A stretch of 64,000 bases of DNA from a virus. The translations under genes and the position numbers were made by a program. Position 1 is the first letter of the stretch. Each line of letters begins with the position of its first letter. The DNA lies in the IMG/VR virus record IMGVR_UViG_3300042937_000753, positions 23,483-87,482 of that record. One strand, given 5' to 3'. Below, in pieces: positions 15,422 to 58,857 of the stretch. Under the pieces are notes generated by a model. The model searched no databases. It saw only the letters and a list, made by a program, of their open reading frames with translations, and was not told the origin of the DNA.

Positions 15422-18400
15422 ATGTTTTGTGAATCTAAATCTACAGTATTAAAAGATCTTAAGGAAAAAGGAATACTTGGTGAATACAATGATGTACTTA
15501 ATACAATTGAGTTTGAAAAATTTAATAAAGAATTTACCAGATTCATTGAGTTAAAATATAATCTAAACACTGGAGGTGAGCTTGCCTTTAGCACATATGA
15601 AACACAAACACGTTTTCCATATAGTTCTAGATACTATAGAGATGATATACAAACAACCATATATGCTCAAACTAATGAACCATTGTTTGAAGCTCTTGAT
15701 GAGGAAAGGATAAAAGCTGATATCAAAAATGAAGTAAAAGACCGTGATGTTTTAAATGAACCTGAAGCTGAATATCCAGAAGATGATTTAATGAACCCAA
15801 TGTTCATGAGAGAGCCTTCTTATCTTCAACATAGATTTAACAGTGAAACTAAAAAAGCAATGTTATCTTTTATAGAAGGTCTCAATATTAAAGTTGTAGA
15901 TGGTCTTGATGAAATTATCCCTAGTAGCAGAAGAACATGGATAGATAAAAATGGTAATATGCAAACTAGAGAGGATCCTTTAGCTGCATTTGATCTTCTA
16001 CAAAAGTTTTTGGCTTTGAAAGAAAATATATCTGATAAAAATGTTTCTATGCAGACAGCCAATATTATTTATAGTTTTCTTGGTAAAAAATCTAAATTAG
16101 GTATTGAACTTTGGAAAGGTATAAATAGTTGGAGTAAGTATCAAGAAGTCTATGATAAGTATAATAATAAAAAACTTAGAGGACAAGAAGAACAGGTTGT
16201 AGAACAACCTATGCAATATGGTGAGAATAGTTTAGCTGAAGATAAAATAAAAGAAGTCTATGAATATGATCCAGCTAGATTTAATGCATGGGCACATAAA
16301 CAAACTATAATTGAGTTTCTTTCTAGCATGCTTATTATTGGAATTGACAATAATTATATTGGTAAAAAAAGAACTAATCCTGATATTGCTAAAGAATATT
16401 TTGAAAGCCTTGGTTATAAAGATAAGTATGCAAAAGATTGGATTACCCGTATGTTTAATAGATTCATGAATTGGATTAAAGAACATATATTAAATAATAA
16501 AGCAATTACAATTTATAAAGAAGCTGAGTTGAGAGATACTGTACTTGATATTGTTGATGATGTTTATAAAAAGAACTATATCAAGTTTATTAGAAGTTAT
16601 TATGAAAACCCTACAACTGGAAAATTCTTTAATGCTAAGGGTCAGGAGTTTGAACAAAAATTTTATGATGAAAGTCTTAAAAGAGATCCCTTTGCAAAAG
16701 AAATAGTTGATAAATTATTCAATGCTCCATATGAATATTTTTTAAGTGGCTCATTAGTTCTTAGAAAATACGGTAGAGTTATAAGAGCTTTAAGTGAAGA
16801 CTTACATGATATTGATGGTGTAATAAGTCTACAACAATTTGAAAGTGAAAAAAATGCTACTCAGTTTTTAAAATGGATTGAAGAAAGAGGTGTTCCTTTA
16901 AGTAGAGAAAGAACTACTAAAAACTCTAAGCAGTTTATAAAAGAACTGATGCCTTATTTAGAAGGACAATCTTGGTATGAAGATTTGAAAAAACAATTTC
17001 CTACTTGGACTTTTAAAGCTGCTTTCATTGGAAAAGATCATAAGAAAGGTGAATCAGTTACTATTTCTGGATATGTTGAACATCCTACAGAAACAGTTCT
17101 AGTTCAGAATGCAGATGGAAGTGCTGCTACAGATTTCTTTAATGCTGAAGATAATGGTAAAACTCTTCCTAAGAGATATGTACTTGATTTCTTTTTGAGA
17201 ACACAAGAGGGTAATTACCCAGAGGTGTTTGATCATTATTATAAAGACTGGAAACAAATCTTTGAAGCTAAGATCAACATGGGCCGTGGAAAAGACTTGG
17301 CTGATTTAATATATTTTCAACCATTTAGAGAAGATAAATACAAGTATACTAATAAAGGTTTTAGATACTTTACATTTGCTGATGATGTAATTACAAATAT
17401 GCCTGACATAACTGAATTTAAAGTTGATGAGCAAGCTATAAAAAATCAAAGATCTAAAGAAGCAGCTAATGCATTAGGTCAAAAAATTGCACAAGCTTTA
17501 GGAGTACAATATATGTACATAACAGATGCTCAAGCAAAACAGATTCTGGAGTCTAGAAAAAAAACATACAATGGTGAACCAGCTTTTTTCTTTGGAGGAA
17601 CAGTTTATATTGTTGGTGATAATGTAAACTTTGACACTGTACTCCATGAATTATCACATCCTTTATTAAGAGCAATTTTTAAAGAAAATCCAAAACTCTT
17701 TAATAACTTGTATGAAGCATTAAAAGCTACTACAGAAGGGGATATAATAATCCAGCATGTTAAAGATAATTATCCAGAGCTTAAAGAAGAAAGCCCTCTA
17801 TTTAAAGAGGAAGCTCTTGCTTATGCACTACAAAGAAAAGCAGCAAATAAAGTAACTAATCAAATTGAGTCATTAGGTTTTGAAGGATTTATTGGAAAGT
17901 TACTTGATGCATTAAGAAATATGCTTAAAAAAATCTTTGGATCTAAAACTAGAGTATCTGAGATTGATGTAAATACCTCAATTGATAAGCTTGCAGATAT
18001 GCTCTTAGAAGATTCATTTGAATATGAAACTGATTTTGTTACCAATGATGATCTTGTTGCATATGCCAGGGAGATAAAAGAAATGGCTGAAAAGCTTACT
18101 AAAGATGTCAAAGCTGAAAAAATACAAGAGGGTATCAATGAAATGTATGCTACCACTCAATTAATATATGAGAAAGCTATAAACTTTAGAACTAGATCTC
18201 CGCAGTATCAAAGAATGTTAAAAGAAGCATTGTTTGTAAAAGGAGAAACAAATGAATTACTTCCTAAAATTAAAAGAATTTTGTTTGGATATCAGACAGT
18301 GTCGGGTCAAGAAAAATTTACTATTGATGATGCTATCAAAAATGCAGTAGAAGCAGAAAGAATGAGAAATGAAGATCTTATTAATAGAGCCCGCAGTTTT

Positions 18401-21400
18401 GTAAACACAGTTGGAATTGTAAATAATATTGCTAAAAATATCTATCAAGATCTTGATGCTATGGATAGAAGCAATTCATTTAATTCTAGAGATGCTATAG
18501 CCTTATTATTCTTATATAGAAGTTCAATTAGATCATACAATGATATGTTTAATTCATTTGATGAAATGATTGCTAATGAAGAAGGTTTTGATATAAATCA
18601 GACTAATGATATTATTGACCTTATTAATGAGGCTAAGAATAACTTAATGAGATCTGATAAAAAAATCCGTGACATATATAAAGCAAACAGTGTTGATTTC
18701 TATGTAGAGATAACAGGTTATATGAATGATTTCTTAAAGGAAGAGCTTGGTAAGAACTTAAGAAATGCATTAACAGATAAGCTTTCTGAAAAAGAAATAG
18801 ATGACTTGTACAATATTGCAATTACTCAAAAATTAGATGACCAAACTGCTGAAGAATTATATACCAATCTAGAAAAGAAAGGTGTTGAATCTAAATATAT
18901 CAAAAAATTTATTGATGATTATAATGCATTCTTGGTTAATCAAGATAAAATTACTGATGGTTTGTCAGGTAAACTAAGAGATGTAAGTTGGTTTAATAGA
19001 TTCTTTGAGTCATATACATCTAGTAATGATCCTATAGTAGGTGGATTAGCTATTTTTATCAATGATCAAAAAACAGAAGCTTCTCAAAGGGCCCTGGATA
19101 AGTCATATAAATTTAGAAAAGAACTTGAACCTCTCTTACAAAAAGTAGGTTATACAACTTTAAAAACCAGACAGTTAACTGATATGTTAATGTTTAAGGA
19201 TAAACTATTATATATAGATCCTAAAACAAAAAAACCTATTGAAAAAGAAGTATTTACATTCTTAAATGAGTTTGGTAATGGTTGGAGATATAAACAAGAT
19301 TTGCTTGAATATCAAGTTGATGAAGCTTTAGCATCAGAAGATGATGATAAAATTAGAACTGCTACTAATGCATTAAAACAGTTTAAAAAAGATTACATGT
19401 GGGATGATTACATTCCAGAATTTTATGAAAAAGATGCTGTCTTTGAAAAATATGGTGAACTTGGTAAAATGGCATGGCTTTCTAGGAAGATGGCTCTTGA
19501 CAAGTTTAATAATGAATCCAATGAGATTAGTGATGAGCTTGAAAGATTTCAAAAATATTCTACTCTTCAAGAGTTATGGAGAGAATATCAAATGCTTTCT
19601 TCATTAAAATATGCAGACGGAACTAGTAAAGTAGATGACCCTGCTACTGGTGTTTATGATTTGTCAATTGCAAAAATACTTCTTGAACATAAAGAATCTA
19701 CTAAAGATTACTATGAATTTGCTCCAAGACCTGGTTCATTACAAACATCATTTAATCAGTTTTTAAGTTTAGCTGAGTCAAATGGTGAAGATTTAGTTAA
19801 GGCTAAAGATGAATGGATCAAACAAAACATTAGAATTGCATATACTCAAGAGTTTTATGATTCTAGAAAAGAATTAACAGCTAAACTTAAACAAATTCAA
19901 GACAAGGTAAATTCTGTTATTGGTTCTGAGTTTGATATTAGTAATGCATACAATGAGATTTATAATTTAATGTTTGCATATAAAGATCAACAAGGGCAAC
20001 CAATTCCATCTGAATTAGGCGTAGATAAAATGAAGATGATTAAAGAACTTAATCAAAAAATCATTAACTATAAAGCTGCTTTTGATACTAAAACTGGTTT
20101 ATCAAATGAAGATGCTGAAGAACTTGAGCTATATATTGCAATCAATAAGAAAAATCCTGAAAGGTTAACTCCAGAGCAAAAACTAAGATATAGAGAGTTG
20201 TTAATGCAACAAACTAAAACAGGTTTGTCTCTTGCTGAAGTTGCTACTATGCAAAGTGTTTATGCTGAATTATCTTCTCTTACACAAAAAGTTTCTACTG
20301 AATACTATGTAGATTCAATAAATGAACATTTACAAAGATTGAATGTAGCCACACTTACTGTAGATCAAGTAGACAATTTTATTAATAGTGATGAGATGAA
20401 AAATCTTCTTGCTAGTGACGGTAAATTTGTAGATTGGTTTGTAACTAACCATGTATCTAGAAAAGTAAAAAATAGAAAAACCCGTAAAATGGAGCTTAAA
20501 TATGAAAGATCCATGGCAAACTCTATTTCTATTCCTAAGAATGAAAAGTATTATGAAAAAACCACCCTCTTTAATGAGTTAACTGGTAAAGATGAAACAT
20601 TCCGTGGTCTACCAAATGCAAGACACTCTACATATAAAGTAAAAGATAAATACAGAACAGGTTATGATCCTACTACAGGAGAAGTAAAACTAGAAGTGGG
20701 AGTTCATATTGATAATAAAGGACAACCCTTACCAAGAGCTTTTAAAGTAGGAGATAAGAACAGTGCTCTTAATGATGATTTCATCAATAAAGATTACATG
20801 AGATTAAAGGAACAACCAAACAGTCCTAGATTTCAGTTACTTGAATTAATGAAGAAAGCACACCTATCATTCCAAGAAGATAAATCTAATAAGTCTAAGC
20901 TTTATTTAGACATGCCTAGATATGTTCTTAGAGATAATTTATCTAGATTACAAGCTGGTAAATTTGGTGAAAGATACAATCAGATTAAAAAAGGTATAAC
21001 TCAGTCATTAAAAGATAGCTTTGGACAAGCCGTTGATGAGAATGAACTTGAGCATAACTATGAGAGAGATAATAATCTTGAAGAATATAGAATGGTTAAT
21101 ACTGATTTAAATTCTGAAGAAGTTTCTTATATTCCTGTTTCTGGTATGTATAATCTTGAGACAGATAATACTGATCCAGATGTTATTCGTGGAATGTTCA
21201 AATACTTACTTTCTCTTGAGACTCAAAGTAAACTTCATGAAACATTACCTCTTGTTAATTCAATCTTGGAAACATTAGCAGATCCTGCTAATGCACCTAA
21301 GACTCCAAATACCTATAGTAAAACCATTAAGAAAATAAAAGGTAAACTTCAGCATACTGTAAAACCAGGAGCAAGTAATAATAGACTTGGTCAAGTAAGA

Positions 21401-22999
21401 TCTCTTATTGAAAGAGAATACCATGGTAAACAATTCAGCGGGGAAGGAAGCTCTATCTATTTAGATAAATTCATGGGTCAATTACAAAAACTTTCTGCAA
21501 GAGCTTCATTAGCTGTTAATATTTCTTCGGATTTAAAAAATAGATACGGTCAGATTGTACAGAACATGCTTGAATCTGCTGGAGGTGAGTTTATTACACC
21601 AAAAGATTTAGCTCAAGCTAGACTATGGGCTGCAACAACAATGATAGAATGGACATCAAAAAGTGTTTACACTAAAGGAGTACCTGCATTATCATCTCAA
21701 ATCATAGAGATGTTTGACTCAGCATTTAAATTCAAAGATGACTTTGGTAGATCTGTTTCTAGAAACATGGGTAAAGATATGATGAATGGTGAGTGGATGT
21801 ATAACATCAGAAAGAATCTGGAGATGGAGGCTGCCTTACAATTATTTGGGGCATTTCTTAATGGACAAAAAGTAGAACAGAAACTTTCTAATGGTAAAAC
21901 AATCACTGTTAATTACAAAGATGCATGGCAAGTTAATAAAGATACTGGTATAGCTGAATTAAAACCCGGTATTGATCCAGCATGGAGTAATAGAACAATT
22001 ACACATGATTTTCAAAGAGGTCAAACTTTGGAGGATATAGCAGCAATGTATGGTGTTACTGTAGATGAAATTAAAGAAAGAAATAAAATTGTAAATGTTT
22101 TAGAATTTGAAGATAATCAAGAAATAATTATTGCTAAATCAGAAAAATTCAAACAATTTAGAAATAAATTTCAAGGTGTATCCCATAAATTATATGGTTC
22201 ATATGATGACTTTGCACAAGCAGAGGGTAATCTATACTTACCATATAGAATGTTTACTTTCATGAGAAAGTGGTTTGTCCCTATGCTTACAAATAGATGG
22301 GGTGCTCGTGTTGAAATTGAAGATGGTAAATTCTGGTCTCCCAAACTCAATAAAAGATATGATTGGATGACTGGTAAAACTAATCTTGGTTTCTATCTTA
22401 ATGCCTATATTGGAATGAAAGAGTTAATTAAGAGTAAAGGAAAGTATTGGTCTTATATGCCTGAAGATCAAAAGAGAGATCTAATGAAAACATTAGCTGA
22501 ATCATTATTTATTATTACATCAGCTCTCTTAGCTTCAATGTTATTTGGATATGATCCTGATGATAAAGAAAGATTTAAAAAATTAGAAGCTAGATCTGGA
22601 GCTCTTGGTACTGATGATTTTAAAACTTGGGGTTTCATACAAAATCATATGTTGATCTTATTATTAGGTACACAAATGGAATCTTCAGCTTTTGTTCCGC
22701 TTCCAACAATGTTTGGAGTAAATCTTGGAGCAGATGACTATATTAAAATTGCTACAACTACCACATCTTCATTTGGAAATACCGTAGGGTTATATGCAAA
22801 AATGATGGAGGATGTATTTAAATTAATGACTTTTAATGATAAAGCTTATTATAGTAGAAAAGAAGGTGAATATTGGTGGCAACAAAAGGATGTACCTAAA
22901 ATATATGGTAGATTACTTAAATCTGTTGGTATCACTGGTTCAACAGGAGATGTAACTCAATCACTTGAAGGTCTTGAAAATGCAGGTAAACTTAAATAA
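15422..22999 (+). CDS. Giant virion cargo protein with NTase-like, zincin and LysM-like motifs
   Basis: A 2,525-residue protein starting 3 nt after the polymerase gene. Visible elements in order: an LSGSLVLRKYG...LHDID segment at about 440-465 that fits the GS...DxD pattern of nucleotidyltransferase folds; a zincin motif HELSH at 742-746 with a following EEALAYA at about 796-802 that could give the third zinc ligand; long helical, coiled-coil-like stretches; a LysM-like repeat at about 2190-2240 (GQTLEDIAAMYGVTVDEI); and a hydrophobic segment near 2365-2380 (SLFIITSALLASMLFG). LysM repeats bind peptidoglycan-type glycans, so the C-terminus may contact the host wall during ejection (inference). 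Its position after the RNA polymerase gene suggests a companion virion cargo or ejection protein. Confidence 0.82.
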   Translation: MFCESKSTVLKDLKEKGILGEYNDVLNTIEFEKFNKEFTRFIELKYNLNTGGELAFSTYETQTRFPYSSRYYRDDIQTTIYAQTNEPLFEALDEERIKADIKNEVKDRDVLNEPEAEYPEDDLMNPMFMREPSYLQHRFNSETKKAMLSFIEGLNIKVVDGLDEIIPSSRRTWIDKNGNMQTREDPLAAFDLLQKFLALKENISDKNVSMQTANIIYSFLGKKSKLGIELWKGINSWSKYQEVYDKYNNKKLRGQEEQVVEQPMQYGENSLAEDKIKEVYEYDPARFNAWAHKQTIIEFLSSMLIIGIDNNYIGKKRTNPDIAKEYFESLGYKDKYAKDWITRMFNRFMNWIKEHILNNKAITIYKEAELRDTVLDIVDDVYKKNYIKFIRSYYENPTTGKFFNAKGQEFEQKFYDESLKRDPFAKEIVDKLFNAPYEYFLSGSLVLRKYGRVIRALSEDLHDIDGVISLQQFESEKNATQFLKWIEERGVPLSRERTTKNSKQFIKELMPYLEGQSWYEDLKKQFPTWTFKAAFIGKDHKKGESVTISGYVEHPTETVLVQNADGSAATDFFNAEDNGKTLPKRYVLDFFLRTQEGNYPEVFDHYYKDWKQIFEAKINMGRGKDLADLIYFQPFREDKYKYTNKGFRYFTFADDVITNMPDITEFKVDEQAIKNQRSKEAANALGQKIAQALGVQYMYITDAQAKQILESRKKTYNGEPAFFFGGTVYIVGDNVNFDTVLHELSHPLLRAIFKENPKLFNNLYEALKATTEGDIIIQHVKDNYPELKEESPLFKEEALAYALQRKAANKVTNQIESLGFEGFIGKLLDALRNMLKKIFGSKTRVSEIDVNTSIDKLADMLLEDSFEYETDFVTNDDLVAYAREIKEMAEKLTKDVKAEKIQEGINEMYATTQLIYEKAINFRTRSPQYQRMLKEALFVKGETNELLPKIKRILFGYQTVSGQEKFTIDDAIKNAVEAERMRNEDLINRARSFVNTVGIVNNIAKNIYQDLDAMDRSNSFNSRDAIALLFLYRSSIRSYNDMFNSFDEMIANEEGFDINQTNDIIDLINEAKNNLMRSDKKIRDIYKANSVDFYVEITGYMNDFLKEELGKNLRNALTDKLSEKEIDDLYNIAITQKLDDQTAEELYTNLEKKGVESKYIKKFIDDYNAFLVNQDKITDGLSGKLRDVSWFNRFFESYTSSNDPIVGGLAIFINDQKTEASQRALDKSYKFRKELEPLLQKVGYTTLKTRQLTDMLMFKDKLLYIDPKTKKPIEKEVFTFLNEFGNGWRYKQDLLEYQVDEALASEDDDKIRTATNALKQFKKDYMWDDYIPEFYEKDAVFEKYGELGKMAWLSRKMALDKFNNESNEISDELERFQKYSTLQELWREYQMLSSLKYADGTSKVDDPATGVYDLSIAKILLEHKESTKDYYEFAPRPGSLQTSFNQFLSLAESNGEDLVKAKDEWIKQNIRIAYTQEFYDSRKELTAKLKQIQDKVNSVIGSEFDISNAYNEIYNLMFAYKDQQGQPIPSELGVDKMKMIKELNQKIINYKAAFDTKTGLSNEDAEELELYIAINKKNPERLTPEQKLRYRELLMQQTKTGLSLAEVATMQSVYAELSSLTQKVSTEYYVDSINEHLQRLNVATLTVDQVDNFINSDEMKNLLASDGKFVDWFVTNHVSRKVKNRKTRKMELKYERSMANSISIPKNEKYYEKTTLFNELTGKDETFRGLPNARHSTYKVKDKYRTGYDPTTGEVKLEVGVHIDNKGQPLPRAFKVGDKNSALNDDFINKDYMRLKEQPNSPRFQLLELMKKAHLSFQEDKSNKSKLYLDMPRYVLRDNLSRLQAGKFGERYNQIKKGITQSLKDSFGQAVDENELEHNYERDNNLEEYRMVNTDLNSEEVSYIPVSGMYNLETDNTDPDVIRGMFKYLLSLETQSKLHETLPLVNSILETLADPANAPKTPNTYSKTIKKIKGKLQHTVKPGASNNRLGQVRSLIEREYHGKQFSGEGSSIYLDKFMGQLQKLSARASLAVNISSDLKNRYGQIVQNMLESAGGEFITPKDLAQARLWAATTMIEWTSKSVYTKGVPALSSQIIEMFDSAFKFKDDFGRSVSRNMGKDMMNGEWMYNIRKNLEMEAALQLFGAFLNGQKVEQKLSNGKTITVNYKDAWQVNKDTGIAELKPGIDPAWSNRTITHDFQRGQTLEDIAAMYGVTVDEIKERNKIVNVLEFEDNQEIIIAKSEKFKQFRNKFQGVSHKLYGSYDDFAQAEGNLYLPYRMFTFMRKWFVPMLTNRWGARVEIEDGKFWSPKLNKRYDWMTGKTNLGFYLNAYIGMKELIKSKGKYWSYMPEDQKRDLMKTLAESLFIITSALLASMLFGYDPDDKERFKKLEARSGALGTDDFKTWGFIQNHMLILLLGTQMESSAFVPLPTMFGVNLGADDYIKIATTTTSSFGNTVGLYAKMMEDVFKLMTFNDKAYYSRKEGEYWWQQKDVPKIYGRLLKSVGITGSTGDVTQSLEGLENAGKLK

Positions 23000-56716: not shown

Positions 56717-57529
56717 TTAGAATGGTAATGGAAAGAATTTATCTTCTAGTCCATCATTCCATTGTCTTCCAGCAAATGAATGTATTTTCTTTGTAGGAAA
56801 TATTTTCTTTGCACACTCTATGGCAATAGCATCATCATATACACCATAATCACCTGATTTAGCATATAAAATCACATTATCATCTATGATCTTGATCCAA
56901 CCACCATTCTTTGTACCCCAATCACCATCACGATAAATACTACTGATATCACTGTGACCATTAGATACAAAGCCATAAGGATCCCAACAAAATCTGTTGA
57001 TTTTATCATCATAATGATCCTGTTGTATAATAAATTTAATACCCTTGTGATTTTGAAAATGAGTAAAGTCAAGATTCTGAGAATACACTTGACGTGCAAT
57101 ATTTCTCATCTTATTGTTCAATTCATAATTCTTATCAGATTCTTGTCTCCACCACTTTTCATATTCTTCTTTGGTAGGTTCTTCTGGATCACCATCAGGA
57201 TAATCATCTTCATAAGCTTCTGGTTCTTCTTCAACAACAACTGATTGTTGTGCTTTAACAGCAGCTTGAATGATATCTAATCTAGCAGCAAGAGTAAGTA
57301 TTTGATTCTCTTGTTCTACTTGGATTTTATATTTATCAGGTTGAACAACAGATAGAAATGTATCCATCTGATCTTTGGTAACACTAAAATTCCAATTACC
57401 ACCAGCAAATGACTTGAAGTCATCAGTAGGTACTTGGAATGTGGTATGCTTGGTAGAACAAGTAATACTGTTTCTACCATAGGTAACTACTTCATAGAGA
57501 CCTTGTTTTGAGTTTAAGTGAATTTTCAT
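56717..57529 (-). CDS. Hypothetical early protein (270 aa)
   Basis: Globular N- and C-terminal parts (HLNSKQGLYEVVTYGRNSITC; HSFAGRQWNDGLEDKFFPLPF) with a central Glu/Asp/Pro linker (EEEPEAYEDDYPDGDPEEPT). Repeated FAG motifs (FAGGNWNF, FAGRQW) suggest an internal duplication. Leader carries two AAAATAAACTC repeats. Unassigned family. Confidence 0.7.
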   Translation of the reverse strand: MKIHLNSKQGLYEVVTYGRNSITCSTKHTTFQVPTDDFKSFAGGNWNFSVTKDQMDTFLSVVQPDKYKIQVEQENQILTLAARLDIIQAAVKAQQSVVVEEEPEAYEDDYPDGDPEEPTKEEYEKWWRQESDKNYELNNKMRNIARQVYSQNLDFTHFQNHKGIKFIIQQDHYDDKINRFCWDPYGFVSNGHSDISSIYRDGDWGTKNGGWIKIIDDNVILYAKSGDYGVYDDAIAIECAKKIFPTKKIHSFAGRQWNDGLEDKFFPLPF

Positions 57530-57978
57530 TTTGAGTTTATTTTTTGAGTTTATATTTAAGTTAAAAATCCCTCTGCACTCAGTTGTAATAGCTCTGTTTC
57601 TGATGCTATTTAAACCATCCCTCCTGTATTACTACAGCTAATGGTACTATTACAACTGCTCACCCTTGGGAAGTGAGTTGTGGTGCATTAATAAATAAGT
57701 AGTAGTACTCTGTAAAAAGGTTGCGATCCTTTACAATTACATTTCCTTAAATTGCTGCATTTGCAACACAAACCTACTTATTAGTACTCTCACAAGGTTG
57801 CAACCCTTGGTCATCGGTTTGTATTATCAGGAATCTAAACCCAATACCTAAGTATTATTAGTTTATCTATCTGTCTGTACCTGCTTGGATGAGAGTAATA
57901 AAAAAACCACAAGTCAACCCCTGCTTTACAGGATGAGAGGTTATGCCTGAAACCTTGTGGTAATGAAGCTAGGAGAGA
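57530..57978 (-). ncRNA. Candidate structured non-coding RNA region
   Basis: About 450 nt with no convincing gene. Helices: CAGTTGTAATAG/CTATTACAACTG (57580-57591 with 57647-57658, 12 bp); AATAAGTAG/CTACTTATT (57694-57702 with 57774-57782) enclosing hairpins at 57712-57734 and 57752-57766; a hairpin at 57793-57809 around palindrome GGTTGCAACC; and CCACAAG/CTTGTGG (57907-57913 with 57954-57960) closing a three-way junction and followed on the minus strand by T7. The last element looks like a small RNA with its own terminator. Strand inferred from that T tract. Confidence 0.5.
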
Positions 57979-57991
57979 TTAATCTCCTAGC
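57968..57991 (-). terminator. Stop-codon-in-loop hairpin of the 49-aa membrane gene
   Basis: GCTAGGAGA (57968-57976) pairs with TCTCCTAGC (57983-57991). The stop codon TAA (57979-57981) is in the 6-nt loop. No T tract follows, so it may stabilise the 3' end and not terminate. Confidence 0.6.
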
Positions 57992-58128
57992 ATTGGTGTT
58001 AGCATACATGCCCAAAATAGACAAGATATACCAATAGCTGGAAGTATATTATGTCCAAAAGACATTAATACACCCATGAATGTGCCTAGTAATAAGACAC
58101 CAAACAAGTAATGACTTATATTCTTCAT
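57979..58128 (-). CDS. Small membrane protein (49 aa)
   Basis: ATG at 58128-58126 overlaps the upstream TGA as ATGA; TAA at 57981-57979. Two hydrophobic stretches (YLFGVLLLGTFMGVLM and ILPAIGISCLFWACML) suggest two membrane helices. The coupled start and clean membrane pattern support a real gene. Function unknown. Confidence 0.75.
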   Translation of the reverse strand: MKNISHYLFGVLLLGTFMGVLMSFGHNILPAIGISCLFWACMLTPMLGD

Positions 58129-58259: not shown

Positions 58260-58857
58260 AACTTAATATTTTTTAGTGTGAGGACTGCCTATGCTAGGAA
58301 CATAGGACTTGATTAGTTTTAGTTAAATAATATTGATTGTGCTCAATATAAAAATTAGACAAGAGTATAACAATATCCTACATTGTTACTAGACCGCTGA
58401 GTCATCACTTGAATAAACTGAATTCCACTTCAGTCAGCTGTATTCTCCCAAGTGGAATCTTGTGGAGGAGAATAGATAATTAACATACAACATGCCGGCA
58501 AATCATAATTGCTCCATGAAATGTATGGTAGTTTAAATTAAACTCACATAGCTTTATCAATACTATGTGTAAAATACCTGATTTTTAAGTCTGCACTAAC
58601 TTTGGATTATAAATGACTGCATCAAACAAGGATCATATCTTGTCTTCATTTACTTAGTACTATATACACATTTGCAGAGTGTAAATAGAACCCAATAGTA
58701 GCCCCACAGGTTTGTCACTGTTTACTAACAGTAAAGAGGTACAGCATTATTGGTTAGCTGTACAAGTTGCGGAGAGGATTACTGCCTCACACAATTTAGT
58801 TGTTACATGTTTAATCTGTTCCTATCATTAGTTCAAGGATACTGATTAGTAAATAGA
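58260..58857 (-). ncRNA. Candidate structured leader/non-coding RNA with pseudoknot
   Basis: About 600 nt without a frame over 20 codons on the minus strand. It contains hairpins CCTATG/CATAGG (58288-58306), CACATAG/CTATGTG (58545-58569), GTACAGC/GCTGTAC and ACTGTT/AACAGT, plus an H-type pseudoknot at 58422-58474. It could be the long 5' leader of the 44/49-aa operon, an independent RNA, or a replication origin region. Confidence 0.45.
58422..58474. other. H-type pseudoknot candidate
   Basis: ATTCCACTT (58422-58430) pairs with AAGTGGAAT (58450-58458), 9 bp; TATTCTCC (58441-58448) pairs with GGAGAATA (58467-58474), 8 bp. The order a-b-a'-b' with loops of 10, 1 and 8 nt is a classical H-type fold. 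The helices are perfect Watson-Crick, so either strand could form it. Confidence 0.6.

Follow-up and report, generated by a model that had tools for sequence, protein, structure and literature searches.

What does the tract at 57530–57978 of a phage genome encode, and do its 449 nt form one RNA or several? The window, the whole 64,000-nt stretch that was analysed, forms the right end of an 87,482-base IMG/VR record. The phage is regarded as crAss-like because the start of the same record encodes a protein with a crassvirus muzzle domain (PF25731, 58 bits, cut-off 27) and several giant ORFs lie within the window; one of these (15422–22999) was without a match in annotated phages. No gene explains the tract, as a preliminary description had stated, with ORFs 57979–58128 and 56717–57529, both on the minus strand, only flanking it. 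A sequence check showed that the four structures described there are all present on the minus strand. The same strand was densely folded (z=−2.69, one of 100 dinucleotide shuffles equally good), while the plus strand folded no better than its shuffles (z=−0.25). Paired positions were conserved in relatives, and, judged from this covariation, the pairing of the tract is under selection. The proposal of a structured, non-coding minus-strand RNA region that includes a three-way junction therefore holds, and its pairing is conserved. The description had also raised a large ornate phage RNA, as a possible unrelated example beside GOLLD and ROOL, and a terminator. Neither was borne out, and the tract consists of small, separate RNA modules in a row, not one large RNA. 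An Rfam search found nothing in the tract itself and a hatchet upstream on the same strand. The features, in minus-strand order, are as follows.

58576–58738, minus strand: hatchet self-cleaving ribozyme (Rfam RF02678, 81.1 bits, gathering score 51, E 3.4e-15)
About 57961–57906, minus strand: module C, 8-bp closed element CCACAAG...CUUGUGG with helix ACCACAAG/CUUGUGGU, then a T-run (near-identical core in 18 loci)
57900–57906, minus strand: T-run following module C; not conserved as a terminator
57785–57897, minus strand: module A (CM R2 76.8 bits; double changes in 8 of 13 pairs; P1 variants)
57897–57890 with 57792–57785, minus strand: P1 of module A
57889–57880, minus strand: invariant strand UCCAAGCAGG of module A
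57809–57793, minus strand: hairpin CAAGG-GUUGCAA-CCUUG of module A, containing the 10-bp palindrome GGUUGCAACC
57694–57782, minus strand: module D, 9-bp helix enclosing two hairpins (from sequence)
57782–57774 with 57702–57694, minus strand: 9-bp helix of module D, AAUAAGUAG with CUACUUAUU
57566–57693, minus strand: module B, putative twister-like ribozyme variant, predicted cleavage U57690^A57689 (CM R1 90.7 bits, covariation, P1 register, T1 variants)
57687–57683 with 57578–57574, minus strand: helix P2 of B, UGCAC with GUGCA (complementary versions among relatives)
57677–57673 with 57663–57659, minus strand: hairpin P4 of B, CUCAC/GUGAG (all five pairs change on both sides)
57672–57664, minus strand: loop L4 of B, UUCCCAAGG, closed by P4
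57658–57647 with 57591–57580, minus strand: helix P5 of B, CAGUUGUAAUAG with CUAUUACAACUG, the 12-bp helix of the preliminary description (sequence, pair counts)
57646–57592, minus strand: variable insert of B, closed by P5 (insert diversity)
57573–57569, minus strand: GAGGG strand of internal loop L1 of B (T1 variants)
57571–57569 with 57670–57668, minus strand: T1 pseudoknot of B, GGG with CCC (complementary tail in non-CCC copies)

In ten relatives of the downstream protein, the upstream non-coding DNA contained the same modules in other combinations. Pattern scans located module A in approximately 90 viral contigs and module B in more than 100, counts that are inflated by relatedness among the contigs. 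These searches fix part of the core letters, so that loop conservation partly reflects collection, and CM E-values are rough. Among 24 large related contigs, 16 of which have a DNA polymerase like that of the window (main matches 33–78 % identity), B was present in 21 and A in 16, mostly as one copy each. Where both occurred in these 24 contigs they were near each other, and A and B were on the same strand in each locus. Their positions relative to genes and to other modules varied among contigs, indicating that the modules are separate units.

These distributions bear on two other readings. The whole tract could be a single large, ornate phage RNA that resembles GOLLD or ROOL and is made up of the domains A, B, C and D, as the dense folding of the minus strand and the adjoining order A-D-B, common to the window and a few relatives, might suggest. 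This is very improbable, since the modules occur alone, reordered or separated by genes, A is missing from eight of the 24 contigs and B from three, and the GOLLD and ROOL models were without a match. The sole Rfam hint of GOLLD (14 bits, plus strand, E 0.16) was rejected as noise. The modules could also be DNA-level elements, for example mobile hairpin repeats or recombination sites, for which their shifting positions and the palindrome in A might speak. This is the least probable reading considered, given that there is mostly one copy per contig, that A and B share a strand per locus and are co-oriented with genes, and that there are compensatory changes that include the T1 pseudoknot. The gene downstream of B was co-oriented in 103 of 106 cases. 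Intergenic copies of B numbered 129 of 137 and overlapped no ORF of at least 110 aa, which argues against a coding explanation of this module.

A and B were not found in annotated phage records, where a csAssE-Sib match fell in a coding region and was discarded. Ten matches to B in bacterial genomes included one real copy (L238), on a 4.6-kb contig of an alphaproteobacterial MAG (GTDB contig RFNS01000086.1), the sole B in the bacterial genome collection. This contig is probably misbinned phage DNA.

The supposed terminator follows the module C element. Relatives show TATATATAC or TTTTATAC where the window has its T-run, and the terminator is unsupported because the T-run is not conserved. In module D, one hairpin bears an A-like motif (AAGGAUCGCAACCUU), and weak CM R2 matches were obtained at this module and in one relative (L252). 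Other conserved elements lie nearby on the minus strand. Downstream of the hatchet, which in the window has a long insert and whose conserved core recurs in approximately 18 of the fetched loci, an element at 58473–58418 is conserved in at least seven loci; its UUCUCC/GGAGAA and AUUCCACUU/AAGUGGAAU pairings overlap in a manner resembling an H-type pseudoknot. Another shuffled conserved module, CAATAGAAAGGC...CCTGAGCATG...AAACTGCTC, lies at about 56712–56655 and is found between A and B in other phages.

Module B has the layout U-AA-[P2]-CA..-[P4]-UUCCCAAGG-[P4']-CA-[P5 with insert]-GA-[P2']-GAGGG. U precedes AA in 127 of 137 copies, and GAGGG is present in approximately 96 % of 103 distinct cores, which is partly an effect of the collection method. 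In a pair-count test of 47 elements, 95.3 % of cells were paired and 17 of 22 pairs changed on both sides; none of 500 shuffles was as good and the signal collapsed at a one-column slide. P4 occurred in more than 12 complementary versions with compensatory changes in all five pairs, and reached E≤0.01–0.02 under a tree-based null (an in-house test modelled on R-scape, in which substitutions were redistributed over a FastTree tree). P2 had four versions (TGCAC/GTGCA, TGTAC/GTACA, TGTGT/ACACA and TGCGT/ACGCA), with compensatory changes in three of five pairs; position 8 (C/U) covaried perfectly with the G/A opposite and forms the fifth P2 pair. P5 covaried as well. Its insert ranged from a few to more than 200 nt, gave 98 sequence clusters among 127 inserts and differs in nearly every phage. 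An exchange of inserts between A and B was considered and rejected (six shared 11-mers, 5.2 expected). Decayed copies of B in three loci (L252 2097–2213, L260 377–489 and L255 2576–2684) have kept the three-helix junction and lost the L4 loop, with GAGGG also gone in two of them; these copies are probably inactive.

Twister ribozymes are marked by the letters U^AA, GAGGG in L1 and UCCCAAG in L4. The letters of B recall these and so led to two predictions, an outer P1 and compensation within T1, neither of which had been used to define B. The outer P1, with one strand directly before the cleavage U and the other directly after GAGGG, was found in register 0 only. Its mean length was 2.37 bp, compared with 1.29±0.10 bp for shuffled mates (maximum of 5000 shuffles 1.70), and 41 copies had a P1 of at least 4 bp against 10.7 with shuffled mates. 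P1 was weak or absent in some copies and comprised 2 bp in the window copy. For T1, compared with the tail letters left free, the triplets were CCC/GGG (77), CAC/GUG (three) and CCA/UGG (one), and each of the four loops that departed from CCC had a complementary tail. In two related phages, the twister-P1 matches had a UAAUGCA start and alternative T1 triplets, as in B. Stems and pseudoknots follow the description of twister in PMC5408937, with P1, P2 and P4 as the essential stems.

The Rfam twister-P1 and Twister-P5 models gave no match at B, and CM R1 failed to match the canonical twister in L250. The Rfam models miss B because its T2 nucleotides differ, its P5 insert is large and variable and P3 is absent. 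Canonical T2, in which GC of L2 pairs with GC of L4, is absent, with L2 of B reading C/U-C-A and L4 having GG. Positions 8 and 9 might instead form a different T2 with the final two L4 bases; U8 stands with A in one copy, but position 8 also covaries perfectly with the P2 base opposite. Judged from sequence, the three-way junction forms a twister-like ribozyme core, and module B is probably a twister-like variant that works like twister. It is not filed as a member of the Rfam twister families.

Alternatively, B may be a twister-derived RNA that is not catalytic, such as a 5' leader with a protective or regulatory effect on the downstream mRNA, kept for its fold and its variable P5 domain rather than for cutting. 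Such a role would suit a T2 unlike that of canonical twister, a P1 missing or short in part of the copies, an insert that is always present and decayed copies that retain the junction without L4 and GAGGG. We consider it unlikely, however, as the catalytic-loop letters (U-AA, GAGGG and UCCCAAG) and T1 pairing are kept and other self-cleaving ribozymes abound at the locus.

Whole-record searches of the 24 contigs identified four hatchets, one pistol and two canonical twisters, the latter at 48.5 and 52.1 bits (E 3e-11 and 3e-12), below the Rfam gathering score of 67.2. All seven lay 113–1603 nt from A or B and on the same strand. Pistol and twister-P1 matches at A/B loci of relatives were at L249 1603–1671, L250 1405–1473 and L273 about 1938–1996, and in the window the hatchet precedes module A, on the same strand, by approximately 0.7 kb. 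The rough chance of such clustering, as the product of contig fractions within that distance, is approximately 1e-10, with contigs taken as independent though not fully so and the distance limit set by the data. Clusters of different self-cleaving ribozymes are known and were the route to pistol, hatchet and twister-sister (PMC10085705).

Module A consists, in order, of P1, the invariant UCCAAGCAGG strand, a variable insert and a hairpin, CAAGG-RUUGCAA-CCUUG, abutting P1; the search pattern accounts for part of the invariance of its single strands. Double changes were seen in seven of the 8 bp of P1, whose variants UACUCUUA, UACUCUUG, UACUCCUA and UGUUCUUG each have a matching partner. P1 was below significance in an unbiased covariation scan and varies in few of the collected copies, too little for that scan; the pair-count test behind the 8 of 13 pairs listed above was therefore used for A. 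An extra hairpin separates the 3' hairpin from the 3' strand of P1 in L023, L031, L034, L052, L027 and L058, a module nested in a module. A had no Rfam family match at E≤10 in the window tract. Twister-sister was rejected as its identity: CUCAU and CAAG are alike, but CUCA lies inside the covarying P1 and changes freely. Widespread and adjoining B, module A may be a self-cutter. That it represents a further undescribed self-cleaving class, with phages using interchangeable classes and inserts serving as separate domains, is a tentative and rather doubtful proposal; the features put forward for it are the invariant strand and the RUUGCAA loop around the covarying P1.

We consider it likely that the tract belongs to a ribozyme island, in which B is a type-P1 twister-like variant and a polycistronic minus-strand RNA is segmented. 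L4 would bend back and form T1 by pairing its CCC with the internal-loop GGG, and cleavage would fall at the U-A step immediately upstream of P2, in the window copy between U57690 and A57689. The upstream product would end in a 2',3'-cyclic phosphate and the downstream product would start 5'-HO-AAUGCACC, the ribozyme fold being its 5' end, such that the product with the downstream gene (56717–57529) would begin with a ribozyme fold and a 5'-OH. Twister is able to cleave without a full P1 (PMC5660989), and the predicted cleavage of the window copy may be slow because its P1 is so short. With B and the upstream hatchet, a minus-strand transcript would be cut at least twice, possibly also by module A, and each segment would have a structured 5' end in front of the next gene. 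Plausible benefits to the phage are 5'-OH ends that are structured and protected, and an uncoupling of neighbouring genes.

If B cleaves, current models have missed a sizeable twister-like branch (more than 100 viral contigs) whose second pseudoknot differs and whose insertion site is nearly free. The presence of several ribozyme classes at one locus type makes the role of phage self-cleaving ribozymes directly testable. The clustering logic that revealed pistol, hatchet and twister-sister readily puts module A forward as a candidate for a new class; if A cleaves, hatchet, pistol, twister, the twister variant and A would be interchangeable transcript-cutting sites, and the hypervariable inserts of A and B would be separate functional domains.

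Among known systems, GOLLD and ROOL are likewise structured non-coding RNAs known from phages, but they are single large homo-oligomer-forming RNAs (PMC12286853), whereas the modules here are independent and roughly 70–200 nt. The theta ribozymes of gut phages, mostly with predicted Bacteroidota hosts, are also small self-cleaving phage RNAs. They have an HDV-like double-pseudoknot fold and lie at tRNA 3' ends, and their role in other phages is tRNA end processing (PMC10879173); neither A nor B showed a link to a tRNA. Hatchet (RF02678) and pistol (RF02679) share loci and strand with A and B, but their cores are unrelated and neither is matched by A or B. Unlike twister (RF03160 twister-P1, RF02684 Twister-P5), B has an L4 that ends in GG rather than GC with one extra U, an L2 without the conserved GC for T2, a fifth covarying pair in P2, no P3 and always a P5 with a large insert. 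P5 occurs in approximately 1 % of twisters (PMC6154101). With twister, B shares P1, P2, P4, the U^AA and GAGGG internal loop, the UCCCAAG terminal loop and a T1 pseudoknot with compensatory changes.
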